From a virus, in IMG/VR virus record IMGVR_UViG_3300037062_000005, positions 1 to 41,744 of that record: DNA of 41,744 bases. One strand, given 5' to 3'. Shown one piece after another: positions 1-41,744 of the stretch. The number at the start of each line of letters is the position of its first letter. The stretch's first letter is position 1. The notes under the pieces are model-generated. The model worked only from the letters and a program-made list of their open reading frames with translations. It had not been told where the DNA came from and did no database searches. The position numbers were made by a program, and so were the translations under genes.

Positions 1-47
1 GCGACGATGGTGATGGTTTTGGCCTTTTCGTCCAATGTAATCTTCAT
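1..47 (-). CDS. 5' fragment of the 87-aa beta-rich protein (duplicate of 41618-41664)
   Basis: Only the first codons of the gene are present here, because the window cuts the circle inside it. The full gene is at 41401-41664. The start codon is the complement of 45-47, preceded on the minus strand by AAGGAG with a 7-base spacer. Confidence 0.8.
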   Translation of the reverse strand, partial: MKITLDEKAKTITIV

Positions 48-127
48 TACAGGACTCCTTAATAGAAAACATCACCTACACGGTGAATCAATCGCAAGAT
101 ATAAAAGAGCTTTATTCTTTACTCTGA
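1..127. repeat. Terminal direct repeat, left copy (assembly overlap of a circular genome)
   Basis: Bases 1-127 are identical to 41618-41744. An exact 127-base end overlap equals a common de Bruijn k-mer size, so this is most simply the unresolved overlap of a circular contig and not a biological terminal repeat. It implies a circular map of 41617 bp and fits circularly permuted (headful-packaged) ends. It contains the 5' end of the gene that is complete at 41401-41664, whose start codon appears here at 47-45. Confidence 0.95.
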
Positions 128-3807: not shown

Positions 3808-3974
3808 AGGTCCTTCTTGATATTTAAAAAAGTCTTTAATTCTTCTATACAACTACGGCACAAATCAACGGTTCTATTTATATCGCACTGATGAACCACC
3901 TCTATGCTTCTAATTTTTTCTTCGCTATCCACTGGGTGACCACATCTATCACAAGTTATATTTCGTTTAATCAT
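3804..3974 (-). CDS. Zinc-ribbon protein (56 aa)
   Basis: Two CxxC pairs, CDRC (residues 8-11) and CRSC (39-42), frame a short beta segment, giving a zinc-ribbon-like module followed by a helix IEELKTFLNIKK. The start overlaps the stop of the radical SAM gene and the stop overlaps the next start, both ATGA, so three genes are translationally coupled. The target is unknown. Confidence 0.65.
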   Translation of the reverse strand: MIKRNITCDRCGHPVDSEEKIRSIEVVHQCDINRTVDLCRSCIEELKTFLNIKKDL

Positions 3975-4932
3975 AACCTATACTTCTCCGCAAATCCTAT
4001 ATCATCCGGTATCAAGCTCTTTTCTTTAGACTCTATTATCGTACTGTCAAACTGAGGAAATAATCTTCTATATGGTGCTAGTCTCTTAGTATTCAAAGCC
4101 TCGGCGAAGCCCGCTTGCGTAAACACCGCCATCTGACCGCACCAACTCGCTAGTGCGATGAGGTCTGGGCGGTCATAGCATTTCTTGTCACGCATTAAAT
4201 ATACACCTTGCTGCTTATCTCTTAGTATGTTTATTCGCTCGAATACATCCTCGAATAAGTCCTCTGGACCAGCATAAACATACCAACGACTGTCCCAGTC
4301 CTTTTGACCGCATTTCTTCAAGAGTTCGCACGCTCGTAAAACAGCAGGTTTTACTCCCATGGAGTCGAAAGCAAAGCGTGTTTCTTTTCTTTTTACACTT
4401 AGAAGTTCTTGGCATAAATCCTCCGTCAGTAGTCTGCAATCAAGTCCTTGGTTAAAATCTACTGTAATCTTTTCTTTTCTCACTTGTGCTACAATCGTTT
4501 TAAAATGCTCAGGAACGGCTAGGATATTATTATCCATTACAGTCAGTAGTTTGGAATGGCCATCCCAAAAATCATATATATCTCCTGTAATCCTGATTTG
4601 TCCCTCTTTACGAGGGACTACACAAAAGGGCAGCGTCTAATACACCCCCTTGTCGTAAACCCGAAGTTTAGTTTTGGCTTCATAGCGTCAATTTCTGGTG
4701 GGAGGGTGGAACTTAAATCCCAACCACTCCCACCAACTTCGACATCCTTGCCGAGCCATTCATGGCCTTTACTCTTATTCCAATCGAATATGATGGATAC
4801 ATATGTCTTATCTACTGGAATTATAGGCATATTCCAATAGACCTCATCTCCCTGCTGCTTGTGAAATAATTCTATCTTATGCAGAGCTAAATTAGGAATC
4901 GTTGAATCAATATCAATTATCATGACCCGCAA
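3971..4932 (-). CDS. Radical SAM protein expressed by an apparent -1 frameshift (about 320 aa)
   Basis: Two overlapping minus-strand frames make one protein. The first (4932-4618, 104 codons) begins MRVMIIDIDSTIPNLALHK and ends FTTRGCIRRCPFV-stop. The second carries on with CVVPRKEGQIRITGDIYDF and runs to 3971. Joined at the slippery CCCTTTT (4630-4624) they restore CIRRCPFC, the C-x3-C-x2-C motif that holds the 4Fe-4S cluster of radical SAM enzymes; the zero-frame product lacks the third Cys. The remainder (DNNIL, DFNQGLDCRLL, RFAFDS) matches the barrel of this family. The start is TTG 4932 or ATG 4923. Substrate unknown. A one-base assembly error or a true mutation in the T-run is the alternative. 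Confidence 0.75.
4600..4650 (-). promoter_or_regulatory. Programmed -1 frameshift signal in the radical SAM gene
   Basis: Reading the minus strand: an SD-like AGGGGG (4650-4645), 14 bases, the heptamer C CCT TTT in the correct phase (4630-4624), a 5-base spacer holding the zero-frame stop TAG (4620-4618), and a perfect 7-bp hairpin GTCCCTC-GTAAA-GAGGGAC (4618-4600). The order matches bacterial -1 frameshift cassettes such as dnaX. The shift re-reads the last T and yields TGT (Cys), the missing cluster ligand. Confidence 0.6.
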
Positions 4933-33190: not shown

Positions 33191-33985
33191 TTAATCATAA
33201 TTCGCCCAATAATTATGCCATACAGCACAATTATAACATTCATTGCCTTGTTTTTTACAGTTAGTACACGCATCTACATCAATGACCTTACCTTCATTAT
33301 CCAGTTCCTCAACACCATACAAGGTACGCAGATAAGCACTATCTTTGCCAGTGTCGGCTTTTTTTTTATGCTTACCTTCACGAGCTTCTTCCTGCTCTAG
33401 CCGAGTTTGGTATTGTCCACCAACAACAACGATATTCTTTTTCTCTGTGATATTGCCTTCGTTAATCTTCGGCAACCCTGTGATGAATATCTTTACATTA
33501 ACATACCCAAACCCACCACACGGAGTCTTAATCTGTCGTGACGCAACATACCCTGTATGGGATAACACAATCGAGTAGTCAAATAACCGTCTCTCGTGTT
33601 CATCGTCTTGACCGCTGTGGCCGCTCACATTTAATCCGTGATGAGAATGGACAAAGCCATTGAAGTTATCGAGTTCTTTGCGGTCTGGGAAGTCGATAGA
33701 GCCAGCAGTAACTTCTTGCTTGGGTATTAAGTAATCGGTAACTAACTGCTGTGTGATAATAGGCTCTACGTTCGCCTTGCTGGTTTTTACGGTTTTGACA
33801 TTATACACCGCACTCCACTCTAGACTTCCCATCCGACTCATCAACCATAACCAATCAGACCATATACTCCAAGGTATATAAAGTTCTTCCTCTTTATCAC
33901 CACAAAACCCACATTCGCCATAGTGCTGTACTTTGACGCCAAGAACGTTGTCATTACCACCTATCACTAAATTATACTGGTTCAA
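33191..33985 (-). CDS. JAMM/JAB metalloprotease, deubiquitinase-like (264 aa)
   Basis: The motif HSHHGLNVSGHSGQDD (residues 113-128) is a JAMM zinc site, H-x-H-x8-S-x2-D with one residue more than the usual x7; the upstream catalytic Glu is probably E56 (SLEW). The N-terminus has CGFC and the C-terminus CTNC...CYNC, two extra zinc-knuckle-like pairs. Such enzymes cleave after the C-terminus of ubiquitin-like proteins, maturing or removing them. The start is a TTG (33985) with a strong AAGGAG at 6 bases, overlapping the E1 stop. A close analogue of the JAB protein of Bil and PRTRC operons by context. Confidence 0.8.
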   Translation of the reverse strand: MNQYNLVIGGNDNVLGVKVQHYGECGFCGDKEEELYIPWSIWSDWLWLMSRMGSLEWSAVYNVKTVKTSKANVEPIITQQLVTDYLIPKQEVTAGSIDFPDRKELDNFNGFVHSHHGLNVSGHSGQDDEHERRLFDYSIVLSHTGYVASRQIKTPCGGFGYVNVKIFITGLPKINEGNITEKKNIVVVGGQYQTRLEQEEAREGKHKKKADTGKDSAYLRTLYGVEELDNEGKVIDVDACTNCKKQGNECYNCAVWHNYWANYD

Positions 33986-34973
33986 CTTTATCTCCTTCCA
34001 CTACTGGCTTATTAAACAAAAACATCTCCGCCTTAGGCACATAATTTTTCTCTACTTCTGAACGTAGAATGTAGTAATTTGGAATATCCATCAATGCCAT
34101 ATAGTTTTTTTCAACTTCTACCCAAGATATATATTTCTTATCTATAGCATCTGTTATCCTTTTTCCAGCTTCTTCGTTTTCTATTTCGTGCGCTATTTCA
34201 ATAATAGTGTCGTTAGGGTTTCGGTAATCGCAGTTATTACAATCTCCTCTATCACAACCATCACAGTCATTATCAACTTCTATCCCGTAAAAATTTGGGT
34301 CAGCAACAACCTTATTTATCGTATTTTTTTCAAGCTTCTTAGTTATATGCTGAGGTATAACAGTGGAGTTTTTGGTGCATAGTTCGGACATAGACTCCGT
34401 GATAACTATATTGCCTTTGCCATTTAACTGCGACCATACGCCAATAGCAGCTGCGGCAGCAGCAGGGCATACTTGGCTTGGCACAATATCATAACCACCA
34501 GGAAGGTTGTCATCAAACGTCATAGGAAATGCGTTAGATACATTGAGTGTATCACCATCATATCCTATTCTCTGATACGGTAAACCATTCTTCCTGCAAT
34601 AAGCGCAAATGAGTTGTTGGCTCTGTATGTTGTCGGTACAGCAGAACACCGGACCGTCACGCAAGATGATGCAATCTTCAGGCTTAATAAGTTTGATTTC
34701 GTGTACTTCAATACGCACATCTGGTCGTATATGGATTATTTTTTCATATAAACAATTAACTTTAGCCCAACCTTTGTATCCTTCTTCTAACGGCAATCTG
34801 TTAAAGTTGGTTTCTTCTATTACATCAGCATCCACCACTATCAGATTCTTGACACCTGACATCGCCAGAAAATACGCTGCCCAGAAGCCAGTACCACCTA
34901 AACCTACCACGCAGGCGGTATCTGGAATCTTCAATCCTTCCATCAGTTCTTGTCTACCGTAAATACCTGGCAT
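33972..34973 (-). CDS. E1/ThiF-like ubiquitin-activating enzyme (333 aa)
   Basis: ThiF/MoeB/E1 adenylating domain: ATP loop GLGGTG (residues 24-29), LIVVDADVIEETNFNR (45-59) with the Asp that binds ribose and the N-x-N-R motif, and CCTDN (111-115). A possible catalytic Cys is C169 (PSQVCPAAAAAAIGV); C111 or C112 cannot be excluded. A Cys cluster CDGCDRGDCNNC near residue 245 may bind zinc. It would adenylate the C-terminus of the small beta-grasp protein encoded two genes upstream and pass it to the E2-like protein. Flanked by E2 and JAMM genes in one operon. Confidence 0.85.
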   Translation of the reverse strand: MPGIYGRQELMEGLKIPDTACVVGLGGTGFWAAYFLAMSGVKNLIVVDADVIEETNFNRLPLEEGYKGWAKVNCLYEKIIHIRPDVRIEVHEIKLIKPEDCIILRDGPVFCCTDNIQSQQLICAYCRKNGLPYQRIGYDGDTLNVSNAFPMTFDDNLPGGYDIVPSQVCPAAAAAAIGVWSQLNGKGNIVITESMSELCTKNSTVIPQHITKKLEKNTINKVVADPNFYGIEVDNDCDGCDRGDCNNCDYRNPNDTIIEIAHEIENEEAGKRITDAIDKKYISWVEVEKNYMALMDIPNYYILRSEVEKNYVPKAEMFLFNKPVVEGDKVEPV

Positions 34974-34982
34974 AATAACTTC

Positions 34983-35753
34983 CTACAGTATGGGTTTTAT
35001 GAATTTCTTAATCAGTTCACCACGCTCTTTGCCTTCGAGTAATCCGTTTACCATAGCGCAAATAGCTTCTGATAACTCTTTATATTCAGGTGGAAGATAC
35101 ATCTCACGGAATCCTCCAGGAGAACCTGTATTGATAACCTCAAGTGCTTTAGCTATAAACGCACAATTCTTCTTTAAGTTGCCCATATTATCATTGTTGA
35201 GAAGATAAACATCTCCGAAGCATATTGGCTTAAAGCTATCGTCGATATTATTTTTACCGTGAAAATGAACGCCTATTTGCGGTATGGCTCTATAATACTC
35301 AACATAAGACGTATCTTGTTTATTTATAGCACCATATATCTTGAAGTTCTCTATAACGATAGGCTTTTTAATACTATACATCTTCTTTGTTATGTAATGA
35401 TATAGCCTGCCTATAGTCAGAGTTCCTTCCCATCCCTTTATGAATATATGCCGTCCCTCTTTGAAACCATCGTAGTTCTCGTTACCGAACGGCATCTTGA
35501 CAGTTTGCTTTCTGAGTTGATGTAAATCTTGATGATACTTATTATCTAATTCTCTTATATAGTAATCGGATTGATTAGCTATTCTGCATAACTTAACATC
35601 GCTGAATACTACCTTTTCATCGGTAGGTTGAACCAAAATGTTTACTTTAACACCAGCAGCTTGAATCCTATCAAGTGCTTTTTCAACTTCTTCCATATTA
35701 TTCGGATTATGTAATTGGTGTTCCATATAATTGCTGGCAGGTAGGCCTGCCAT
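34983..35753 (-). CDS. E2-like conjugating protein (256 aa)
   Basis: The core GVHFHGKNNIDDSFKPICFG (residues 161-180) mirrors the prokaryotic E2 signature HPH...G.ICLG, with C178 as the putative thioester Cys and H163/H165 preceding it. Before it come FIKGWEGTLTIGRLYHYI and KKPIVIENFKIYG, strands shared with the paralogue at 37052-37672. The N-terminal 60 aa is extra. ATG 35753 and GTG 35756 are both possible. It lies between the ubiquitin-like and E1 genes, 10 bases from each. The fold is inferred from the motif and operon. Confidence 0.7.
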   Translation of the reverse strand: MAGLPASNYMEHQLHNPNNMEEVEKALDRIQAAGVKVNILVQPTDEKVVFSDVKLCRIANQSDYYIRELDNKYHQDLHQLRKQTVKMPFGNENYDGFKEGRHIFIKGWEGTLTIGRLYHYITKKMYSIKKPIVIENFKIYGAINKQDTSYVEYYRAIPQIGVHFHGKNNIDDSFKPICFGDVYLLNNDNMGNLKKNCAFIAKALEVINTGSPGGFREMYLPPEYKELSEAICAMVNGLLEGKERGELIKKFIKPIL

Positions 35754-35763
35754 CACTCCGATA

Positions 35764-36033
35764 CTACCTCAGCACGTTTCCAGGTTTCACTGAACGCTGT
35801 ACTTCAACAGATGCACACTCGCCGAACGTCGCCGGAATGGTCTTTGAGTCCATAATCTCACGGCCATCAATTATGAGGGCGAAACTGTCGATGCCAAGGT
35901 TGGCTAACATAACCTTCAGTGTCTTGGCGGTTGGGTCGCCTCTGTTTACAGGATACGATTTTCCTGCTATGAGAACGCTCATCTGGCCGTTGTTTGGTTG
36001 AGGGTTGTCGTTTGCCAATGCTTCCATATCCAT
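35764..36033 (-). CDS. Ubiquitin-like beta-grasp protein (89 aa)
   Basis: After about 17 variable residues the sequence reads as a beta-grasp: two strands (MSVLIAGKSYPVNRGD), a helix (TAKTLKVMLANLGID), strands (FALIIDGREIMDSKTIPA) and a final strand CASVEVQRSVKPG. It ends PGNVLR, not Gly-Gly, so it may be processed at the Gly, or conjugated or recognised in another way. The ATG at 36033 has AAGGAG at 8 bases; the GTG at 36042 is too close to it. First gene of the conjugation cassette. Confidence 0.75.
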   Translation of the reverse strand: MDMEALANDNPQPNNGQMSVLIAGKSYPVNRGDPTAKTLKVMLANLGIDSFALIIDGREIMDSKTIPATFGECASVEVQRSVKPGNVLR

Positions 36034-36087
36034 CTTATTCACTCCTTATAGGGTTAGTAAAAAAGTTTTTTTGTCCGCAATAGTGCC

Positions 36088-36115
36088 ATTTTACACACAA
36101 AAACGCACAAATCAA
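36088..36115 (-). promoter_or_regulatory. Leftward promoter of the ubiquitin-like cassette
   Basis: TTGATT (36115-36110), 16-base spacer with a T-run, TAAAAT (36093-36088) followed by GGC on the minus strand, about 50 bases upstream of the ubiquitin-like start. Close relative of the promoters at 5223-5196 and 39461-39433. The upstream DNA to 36211 is AT-rich with several T-tracts, possibly UP-element-like. Confidence 0.6.
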
Positions 36116-36211
36116 TACTTTTTTCGACTTTTTTGCACTTTTTTTGAAAAATGTCGCGCCGATTGTAACGATTGTGTCGATTTTGTCGGCAAAGTTTTTT
36201 TGTTCGCATTA

Positions 36212-36283
36212 TAGCCTATAAGGGAGTCGAACCCTTGTTTACGGAACGAAAGTCCGTTATCCTAACCGCTGGATGAATAGGCC
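36212..36283 (-). tRNA. tRNA-Glu (anticodon TTC)
   Basis: 72 bases fold into a standard cloverleaf: acceptor GGCCTAT/ATAGGCT, D-loop AGCGGTTAGGA, anticodon stem ACGGA/TCCGT with loop CTTTCGT, so TTC reads GAA (Glu), T-arm AAGGG-TTCGACT-CCCTT, discriminator A. No CCA is encoded. GAA is a frequent codon in these genes, so the tRNA may boost translation. It lies between two minus-strand gene groups. Confidence 0.9.
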
Positions 36284-36344
36284 AGCACAATACTCTTGTT
36301 TCTCTCTTAACCGCCCTAGGATTGACAAAGTGCAGTAAAAGACA

Positions 36345-36510: not shown

Positions 36511-36903
36511 CTACGGCTCTAATATCACAATAACCTTCTTTAGTTTACGGGCATAGCGTATAGTTGCCCACGTGCCAGACCTTACCACTTCTTGCTCTGT
36601 GTTAGGCATTGCTATCAGTAAATCACAGACACTAACAATGACGTGGTTACGGTCAATGTAATCCATCTCAGGCATTATCATAGCAGCATCAGAGTAATCA
36701 AACACAGCCTTCTTGTTGATAGGCGGGTGTACGATTATCTTACAATCCTTCATAAACTTAGCTATCTTATGACAGTATTCATCTGCACAGATACAGCCGC
36801 CGTGATGAACTTCGGTAGGTTTATATTCAGCGAATAACCTAATGAGGCGTTCTTTCTGCTTGTCGGTTATTGCAATATGAGTGCCGGTAAAGCCAATAGT
36901 CAT
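36511..36903 (-). CDS. SLOG/Rossmann nucleotide-binding protein (130 aa)
   Basis: ATG at 36903 after GGAAGGGAAGAACA. MTIGFTGTHIAIT, HHGGCICADEYCHKIAKFM, a DYIDRNHVIVSVCDLLIAMP strand and RSGTWATIRYARKLKKVIVI match the SLOG (LOG/DprA-like) fold, with a GxTG start, a GG...AD loop and GTW near the C-terminus. SLOG proteins bind or process nucleotides and nucleotide-derived signals. It lies in the operon with the second E2-like gene and a small membrane protein, an arrangement reminiscent of sensor-effector pairs, but the role is unproven. Confidence 0.75.
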   Translation of the reverse strand: MTIGFTGTHIAITDKQKERLIRLFAEYKPTEVHHGGCICADEYCHKIAKFMKDCKIIVHPPINKKAVFDYSDAAMIMPEMDYIDRNHVIVSVCDLLIAMPNTEQEVVRSGTWATIRYARKLKKVIVILEP

Positions 36904-37055
36904 TGTTCTTCCCTTCCAAAAGGATAAGCTATTCTCTCCCATTGAGGTCTATATCCAGCCATTTTAGCCACAGCGTTATTTAATTCCCAGTTACTTCTAT
37001 GGTCTATTGGTGTAACTTTTTTACATGTCTTTTTACGTTTAGTCTTAACTTTCAT
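36900..37055 (-). CDS. Small basic hypothetical protein (51 aa)
   Basis: MKVKTKRKKTCKKVTPIDHR then WELNNAVAKMAGYRPQWERI. It is linked by ATGA overlaps to the E2-like paralogue upstream and the SLOG gene downstream, so all three are coupled. Too short for a domain call. Confidence 0.65.
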   Translation of the reverse strand: MKVKTKRKKTCKKVTPIDHRSNWELNNAVAKMAGYRPQWERIAYPFGREEQ

Positions 37056-41400: not shown

Positions 41401-41664
41401 TTACGCCTGCATCGGCTTGACACCATCCGCTTTTTTGGCAGGGTGACTGATAACGGTGAACCCGATATTCAGCTCATTGCCAAGCGAATTGTGAACGCCT
41501 GTTCTTACTGGCCAGCCACCACCAGCTTTGCAATGGATTAGTCCATCGCCAGCTTCAGACATCGTGCCATCTTTCAACTTGTGCGCCTTCTGAGGGACGC
41601 CCTTTGGGTCGTAGTTGGCGACGATGGTGATGGTTTTGGCCTTTTCGTCCAATGTAATCTTCAT
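41401..41664 (-). CDS. Small beta-rich hypothetical protein (87 aa)
   Basis: ATG at 41664 with AAGGAG at 7 bases. MKITLDEKAKTITIVANYDP, then GDGLIHCKAGGGWPVRTGV, NELNIGFTVISHPAKKADGV. Mostly short strands and glycine turns; no signal peptide. First gene of the leftward small-membrane operon behind the promoter at 160-132. No family recognised. Confidence 0.65.
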   Translation of the reverse strand: MKITLDEKAKTITIVANYDPKGVPQKAHKLKDGTMSEAGDGLIHCKAGGGWPVRTGVHNSLGNELNIGFTVISHPAKKADGVKPMQA

Positions 41665-41744
41665 TACAGGACTCCTTAATAGAAAACATCACCTACACGG
41701 TGAATCAATCGCAAGATATAAAAGAGCTTTATTCTTTACTCTGA
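41618..41744. repeat. Terminal direct repeat, right copy
   Basis: Exact copy of bases 1-127, see that entry. Coordinates beyond 41617 duplicate the start of the circle. Confidence 0.95.

Follow-up and report, generated by a model that had tools for sequence, protein, structure and literature searches.

The window analysed here (the whole stretch of DNA, 41,744 nt) carries at positions 33191-36033 four adjacent minus-strand genes in the order Ubl-E2-E1-JAMM, with spacings of 7 bp (Ubl/E2) and 9 bp (E2/E1) and an overlap of 14 bp between E1 and JAMM (Table 1). All four open reading frames listed in an earlier, sequence-only reading of this DNA are present, and each has significant homologues in many other contigs, with order and strand preserved; the set therefore lies far beyond chance. 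Scans of the cassette against Pfam, PHROGs, NCBIfam and PADLOC put a name to one of its members only, the E1.

The record belongs to a podovirus-like phage, as had been supposed, with PHROGs matches to the terminase large subunit, head-tail connector, major head protein and tail genes, and with an exact 127-bp direct terminal repeat (window positions 1-127 identical to 41618-41744). Since both ends carry this repeat, we probably have here an entire phage genome, circularly closed and 41,617 bp long. Searches of this genome found no PolA-type polymerase, beta clamp, gp45-like clamp or tyrosine integrase.

Upstream of the Ubl gene, the promoter-like site that had been proposed to serve the whole cassette does exist, but such sites around the cassette number 17 against 17.4 in shuffled sequence, i.e. 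there is no excess. The pattern GCGNACAAAAAAACTTT has exactly two zero-mismatch matches in the window, 129 bp apart and both in the interval that separates the tRNA gene from the Ubl gene, the number expected in the window at up to three mismatches being 0.67. Downstream, the gene for a zinc-ribbon and coiled-coil protein is a possible operon member of the cassette; no relatives of its product were found in other cassette loci. Elsewhere, 36511-36942, upstream of the cassette, encodes a small protein with weak matches to SLOG/LDcluster4 (0.006) and phrog_289 (1.2e-5), and 3971-4537 gives a radical-SAM-like match (phrog_9298, 7e-19) over the C-terminal part of the profile.

Table 1. Features of the cassette and its surroundings in the window
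Feature	Coordinates	Strand	Details
Ubl, 89 aa, single predicted beta-grasp	35764..36033	-	ATG at 36033 behind AAGGAG; longest ORF from GTG 36042
E2-like protein, 257 aa	34983..35756	-	Cys179 (Cys178 if counted from ATG 35753; codon 35222-35220), His164
E1/ThiF-MoeB-type adenylyltransferase (predicted), 333 aa	33972..34973	-	GLGGTG; Pfam ThiF 4e-20
JAMM/JAB metallopeptidase (predicted), 264 aa	33191..33985	-	start TTG at 33985, overlaps E1 gene
Second E2-like paralogue, 206 aa	37052..37672	-	keeps FHG..CFG, the same His and Cys motif
Zinc-ribbon and coiled-coil protein, 175 aa	32642..33169	-	21 bp after JAMM; from sequence and weak zinc-ribbon matches
Promoter-like site	36088..36115	-	TTGATT-16-TAAAAT, consensus match, upstream of Ubl gene
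Direct repeat GCGGACAAAAAAACTTT	36062..36078	-	upstream of operon; second copy GCGAACAAAAAAACTTT at 36191-36207
tRNA-Glu (TTC) gene	36211-36284	-	directly upstream of cassette; sole tRNA found in window

The four cassette proteins

Homologues of the Ubl occur on 10 genome contigs (1e-10 to 1e-15), and those of the phage family are reached by profile. The AF2 model (pLDDT 75.5, seven sequences) follows the order strand-strand-helix-strands, and its top Foldseek matches are the parkin Ubl, ubiquitin, SUMO and ISG15 (probability 0.8-0.99, E 0.01-0.05, TM about 0.45). The window protein ends in ..VKPG-NVLR, i.e. in Gly85 and a four-residue tail. Gly is the C-terminal residue in 24/42 Ubls, whilst 17/42, the window protein included, continue for one to six residues past a Gly; in 41/42 relatives a Gly thus stands at the C-terminus or no more than six residues from it, and the short tails fit trimming by the JAMM protein. 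We predict with moderate confidence that the Ubl has a beta-grasp fold with a C-terminal Gly, as a Ubl conjugation cascade requires, the reactivity of this Gly being putative.

The E2-like protein contains the motif ..HFH..ICFGD.., and its homologues (1e-13 to 1e-21) are always encoded between Ubl and E1. The CFG-type Cys to which the sequence-only reading had drawn attention is well supported, Cys179 and Gly181 being invariant (50/50 each) and His164 kept in 49/50. The accompanying UBC assignment fared less well: Foldseek searches of PDB and BFVD, Pfam and PDB profiles returned no UBC match, and the AF2 model reaches a pLDDT of 69 and a pTM of 0.58, its succession of helix, strand meander, His..Cys loop and helices being nevertheless the order of a UBC domain. 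Structure prediction, proposed earlier as a check, therefore gave a ubiquitin-like Ubl but an E2 model without a UBC match. We use the term E2-like on the basis of gene position, the conserved Cys/His motif and predicted topology, from which we infer a UBC fold. Eukaryotic E2s have the pattern FHPN...NG.IC.DI, which the putative active-site stretch of the Omnitrophota E2s, FHYLGLSNEGHAICTGDI, resembles. The second E2-like paralogue of the window matches the first in phmmer at 4.9e-8 (39/197 residues identical) and the E2 of locus L109 at 1.2e-11. No E2 relatives were found among 50,697 annotated phage records.

For the E1, both the GLGGTG motif and the ThiF identity are confirmed, and the best NCBIfam and PDB matches are ThiF, MoeB and TcdA. 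The protein has one ThiF domain and is longer in the window than in the phage clade (333 versus about 195 aa); a Cys-containing C-terminal extension is common to the window and its Omnitrophota relatives. C169, previously put forward as the catalytic residue, is rejected as the E1 nucleophile, being Cys in 1/46 relatives (Val in 33 and Ile in 8), whereas 45/46 retain C112 of the CTDN motif. The CTDN motif is also found in MoeB-type enzymes. Because C169 is not conserved and C112 alone is kept, the predicted E1 is probably an adenylyltransferase without a thioester step of its own.

The JAMM protein has homologues down to 1e-40, in which E56, H113, H115, S124 and D127 are kept throughout (48/48). 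The HSHH..SGQDD motif described earlier is present and its ligands are conserved, but the window protein alone remains below threshold in Pfam (0.13), and its identity as a JAMM peptidase is supported by its relatives, which pass the Prok-JAB cut-off (1.3e-8). In the window motif the spacing from the second His to the Ser exceeds that of the relatives by one residue, which counts against a role in conjugation.

Distribution of related cassettes

Scans of viral contigs with the window E1, E2 and JAMM as single proteins returned no relatives, and annotated phages and plasmids contained no close relatives of these three. Relatives were reached through a fixed-spacing JAMM DNA pattern, from there to viral contigs and then by an E1 profile, which yielded 46 viral and 14 genome loci; one match to the JAMM pattern (L003) seems to have arisen by chance within a tail gene and was set aside. 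With all open reading frames of these loci searched using the family profiles, the order Ubl-E2-E1-JAMM on one strand was found nearly everywhere, on 11 genome contigs (that of L100 ends before the Ubl gene) and at more than 40 viral loci, whose E1s range down to about 30% identity with that of the window. The cassette family is more widespread than the window sequence alone could show.

The nearest relatives of the window set are on genome contigs rather than phage contigs, mostly of Candidatus Omnitrophota, and their E1s are 40-50% identical to the window E1, C-terminal extension included. A related cassette is carried by the complete chromosome of Candidatus Velamenicoccus archaeovorus, and full-length E1 occurs in 6/285 genomes of the Omnitrophota phylum. 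In the E1 tree the window falls inside the Omnitrophota branch (supports 95-99), adjoined by a separate branch of phage cassettes. Two Omnitrophota-type loci adjoin TraH, and one of them TraF too, so that conjugative elements are the likely carriers of these TraH-adjacent cassettes; no match to the terminase of the window turned up in nine cassette-bearing genomes and hence, by this test, the cassette there does not lie in a related prophage.

Several loci depart from the common arrangement or have other neighbours of note. In a second viral class (L002 and L005-L054, e.g. L008, L016 and L042) the order is mostly JAMM-E1, and the E1s form a clade of their own. Some cassettes contain two E2-like genes in tandem or a pair of Ubl-like genes (L071 and L095; L068 and L109), and five loci (L056, L067, L072, L090 and L111) have open reading frames on the opposite strand, within or between cassette genes, that by sequence pattern resemble GIY-YIG homing endonucleases. 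In Velamenicoccus a DUF6791-ThiF protein is encoded a few kb upstream of the cassette (L107:3457-4644) and a Fic protein downstream. One Omnitrophica and one Dehalococcoidia MAG (loci L104 and L105) share a single cassette, its family scores being identical in both, which reflects either a binning error or a very recent transfer.

Replication genes beside the cassette

At 42 viral-type loci, forming 34 clusters at 95% and 32 at 90% E1 identity with a median pairwise E1 identity of 52%, a clamp-loader/sliding-clamp block of gp44-gp62-gp45-like genes stands immediately before the cassette; about 30 large T4-like viruses hold it in this position, directly behind the sliding-clamp genes. The first gene of the block encodes an AAA+ ATPase (AAA 1.7e-9, Gp44_lid 3.6e-4; one locus begins after it), the second a phage clamp loader A subunit (PF16790, 8.4e-11, over cut-off) and the third a protein of about 247 aa without a Pfam match. 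A profile of this last protein matches archaeal sliding clamps in seven of the eight PDB chains among the matches listed, each weakly (E about 0.2), and on account of these matches and of its place in the block it is likely to be a gp45-like clamp. The start of the Ubl gene lies 34 to 819 bp beyond it. T4-type portal was over cut-off in 6/36 records and Terminase_6N in nine, many of the others being short fragments.

No clamp gene lies beside the cassette at the Omnitrophota loci or in the window, and in 8/9 cassette-bearing genomes a bacterial dnaN was found away from the cassette. Of 17 plasmid regions viewed around PRTRC cassettes, six have an annotated dnaN nearby, a raw count that includes two from related Pseudomonas plasmids. 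Matches to the gp45 profile in the class with JAMM-E1 order (L007, L010) were weak and turned out to be GIY-YIG-like open reading frames. Two contigs of one Thermoplasmata MAG (L112, L113) both have the clamp and cassette block and may be mis-binned phage contigs.

Comparison with known systems

Bil operons share the Ubl, E2, JAMM and E1 activities with the cassette, and processing of the Ubl tail by JAMM is plausible in both. They run Ubl-E2-JAMM-E1, whereas the order in the window and its relatives is Ubl-E2-E1-JAMM, a difference that the sequence-only reading had seen correctly. BilA has two ubiquitin-like domains, and BilD comprises an inactive and an active adenylation domain together with a Cys domain bearing a conserved Cys (PMC11354881); the cassette, by contrast, has one Ubl domain in 89 aa, and its E1 has neither pseudodimer nor Cys domain, consisting of 333 aa with one ThiF domain and with Cys at position 169 in 1/46. 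The CEHH motif of the Bil E2, i.e. Cys followed by Glu at +6, His at +8 and His at +13 (PMC11354881), is absent from the window E2, where FGDVYLLNNDNMG after C179 offers no Glu or His at those positions. With several Bil-defining features absent, membership of Bil has to be given up.

PRTRC gene sets likewise bring Ubl, E2, JAMM and E1 together on mobile elements, but in the plasmid layout ParB-E-C-F-B-A-ThiF (C-F-B-A-ThiF) rather than Ubl-E2-E1-JAMM. The suggested kinship with PRTRC survives, as a distant one, for two of the four proteins: in hhalign the JAMM family is related to protein A at 95.9% and the E1 family to ThiF at 97.5%, but no relation was detectable between the E2s (protein B, 2.3%) or the Ubls (protein C, 0.1%), and neither has an NCBIfam match. 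The JAMM relatives match TIGR03735 (PRTRC A) at 4.6e-6, below the curated cut-off, whilst the E1 falls under the TIGR03736 cut-off and outside the PRTRC E1 clade, which is separate (100/99). For the E2s, hhalign was not significant, the best short alignment lying over both Cys motifs (P 0.02-0.04). No ParB match was found among the scanned neighbouring open reading frames, nor were PRTRC E and F recognised.

The cassette ThiF-type E1 is also weakly similar to PADLOC E1-E2 fusions of type II CBASS (Cap2/Cap3; 1.7e-11) and to Citrobacter BubCD of the Bub system (0.002), but unlike these systems the cassette has no E1-E2 fusion and no recognised nucleotidyltransferase. The bacterial operon types that combine E1-like, E2-like, JAB and Ubl proteins, as set out in the relevant passages of Iyer 2006 (PMC1779556), are of the same general class; in the operons described there E1 is typically fused to JAB, or other genes are present, whereas the cassette consists of four separate genes and occurs in phages and conjugative elements. 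The sole phage Ubl-JAB case in those passages is that of the lambda/T1 tail proteins I/K, which lacks E1 and E2 (PMC1779556). Complete Ubl-E2-E1-JAMM sets are known from bacterial defence operons and plasmids; the literature searched reports no phage-borne family and no phage cassette of this kind, a weak negative given the many subscription papers outside the search, and a survey of jumbo phages makes no mention of JAB, UBC or Ub-like proteins.

Proposed mechanism and alternatives

We consider that the cassette probably encodes a self-contained, reversible ubiquitin-like conjugation system on mobile elements, and assign this reading a probability of about 0.68. It draws on the shared gene order, the conserved E2 Cys/His and JAMM ligands, and the ThiF and Prok-JAB matches over cut-off, and further on the near-terminal Gly of the Ubl, its ubiquitin/SUMO-like model, the active-site stretch of the E2s and an E1 without a conserved Cys. 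All catalysis, including Ubl processing and the hand-over from E1 to E2, is what we infer from these features. In the mechanism envisaged, JAMM would trim the NVLR tail of the Ubl and expose its terminal Gly, which the E1 would then adenylate; the adenylate would be handed directly to Cys178/179 of the E2-like protein, with no E1 thioester, and the Ubl moved from there to a target amine, from which JAMM could also take it off again.

A Cys-less E1 and a terminal Gly are, however, also features of MoeB/ThiF sulphur-carrier systems, which counts against conjugation, as do the lack of a UBC match for the E2 in sequence and fold searches, its mediocre model and the non-significant hhalign comparison with the PRTRC E2. 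The Ubl might accordingly correspond to ThiS/MoaD and the E1 to MoeB, providing a thiocarboxylate for tRNA or cofactor modification, with JAMM only trimming. The ThiF, MoeB and TcdA matches of the E1 agree with this, as do the radical-SAM-like and tRNA genes elsewhere in the window, but a sulphur carrier would leave unexplained why a gene with an invariant Cys and a near-invariant His always stands between Ubl and E1, and the recurrent neighbours are clamp and clamp loader, with no sulphurtransferase or biosynthetic partner recognised among them. We therefore regard this function as unlikely.

The sequence-only reading had looked instead to the blocking of defence, the protection of virions or the exclusion of other phages, whereas the gene neighbourhoods in related phages direct attention to the replication sliding clamp. 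Exclusion of superinfecting phages, by Bil-like tagging of the structural proteins of competitors, could draw on the four activities held in common with Bil and on the sporadic occurrence in conjugative elements and phages; it seems to us rather improbable, since the Bil-defining features are absent and the T4-like cassette stays by core replication genes at a median E1 identity of 52%, unlike typical mobile defence cargo. Phages in general encode inhibitors of host defences, and the JAMM protein, alone or with the cassette, might strip or compete with Ubl-type conjugates of host Bil or CBASS systems. Such a stripper would need no Ubl, E2 or E1 of its own, and all four genes occur together in nearly every full-length locus, which makes counter-defence very improbable despite the presence of the JAMM protein.

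Within the conjugation reading, the position of the cassette directly behind the clamp genes in T4-like phages suggests the clamp as the leading substrate candidate in that branch and, taken with the dnaN genes close to some PRTRC cassettes of plasmids, it allows a concrete guess at the substrate. Common ancestry of one gene block, with no functional tie, could have produced the clamp-cassette pattern in phages. It is a tentative proposal, and one we would put at clearly less than even odds, that phages modify the DNA sliding clamp with a Ubl of their own, the T4-like cassette acting as a gp45 switch, for example between replication, repair and late transcription, as a prokaryotic counterpart of PCNA ubiquitination/SUMOylation, and the window/Omnitrophota branch acting on a host clamp or another replication protein; the target of the window phage itself could be the host clamp or something else. 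Clamp modification by ubiquitin-like proteins has hitherto been thought eukaryotic, and these loci make a counterpart in viruses of prokaryotes testable. The family also provides a very small E1 without a conserved catalytic Cys.
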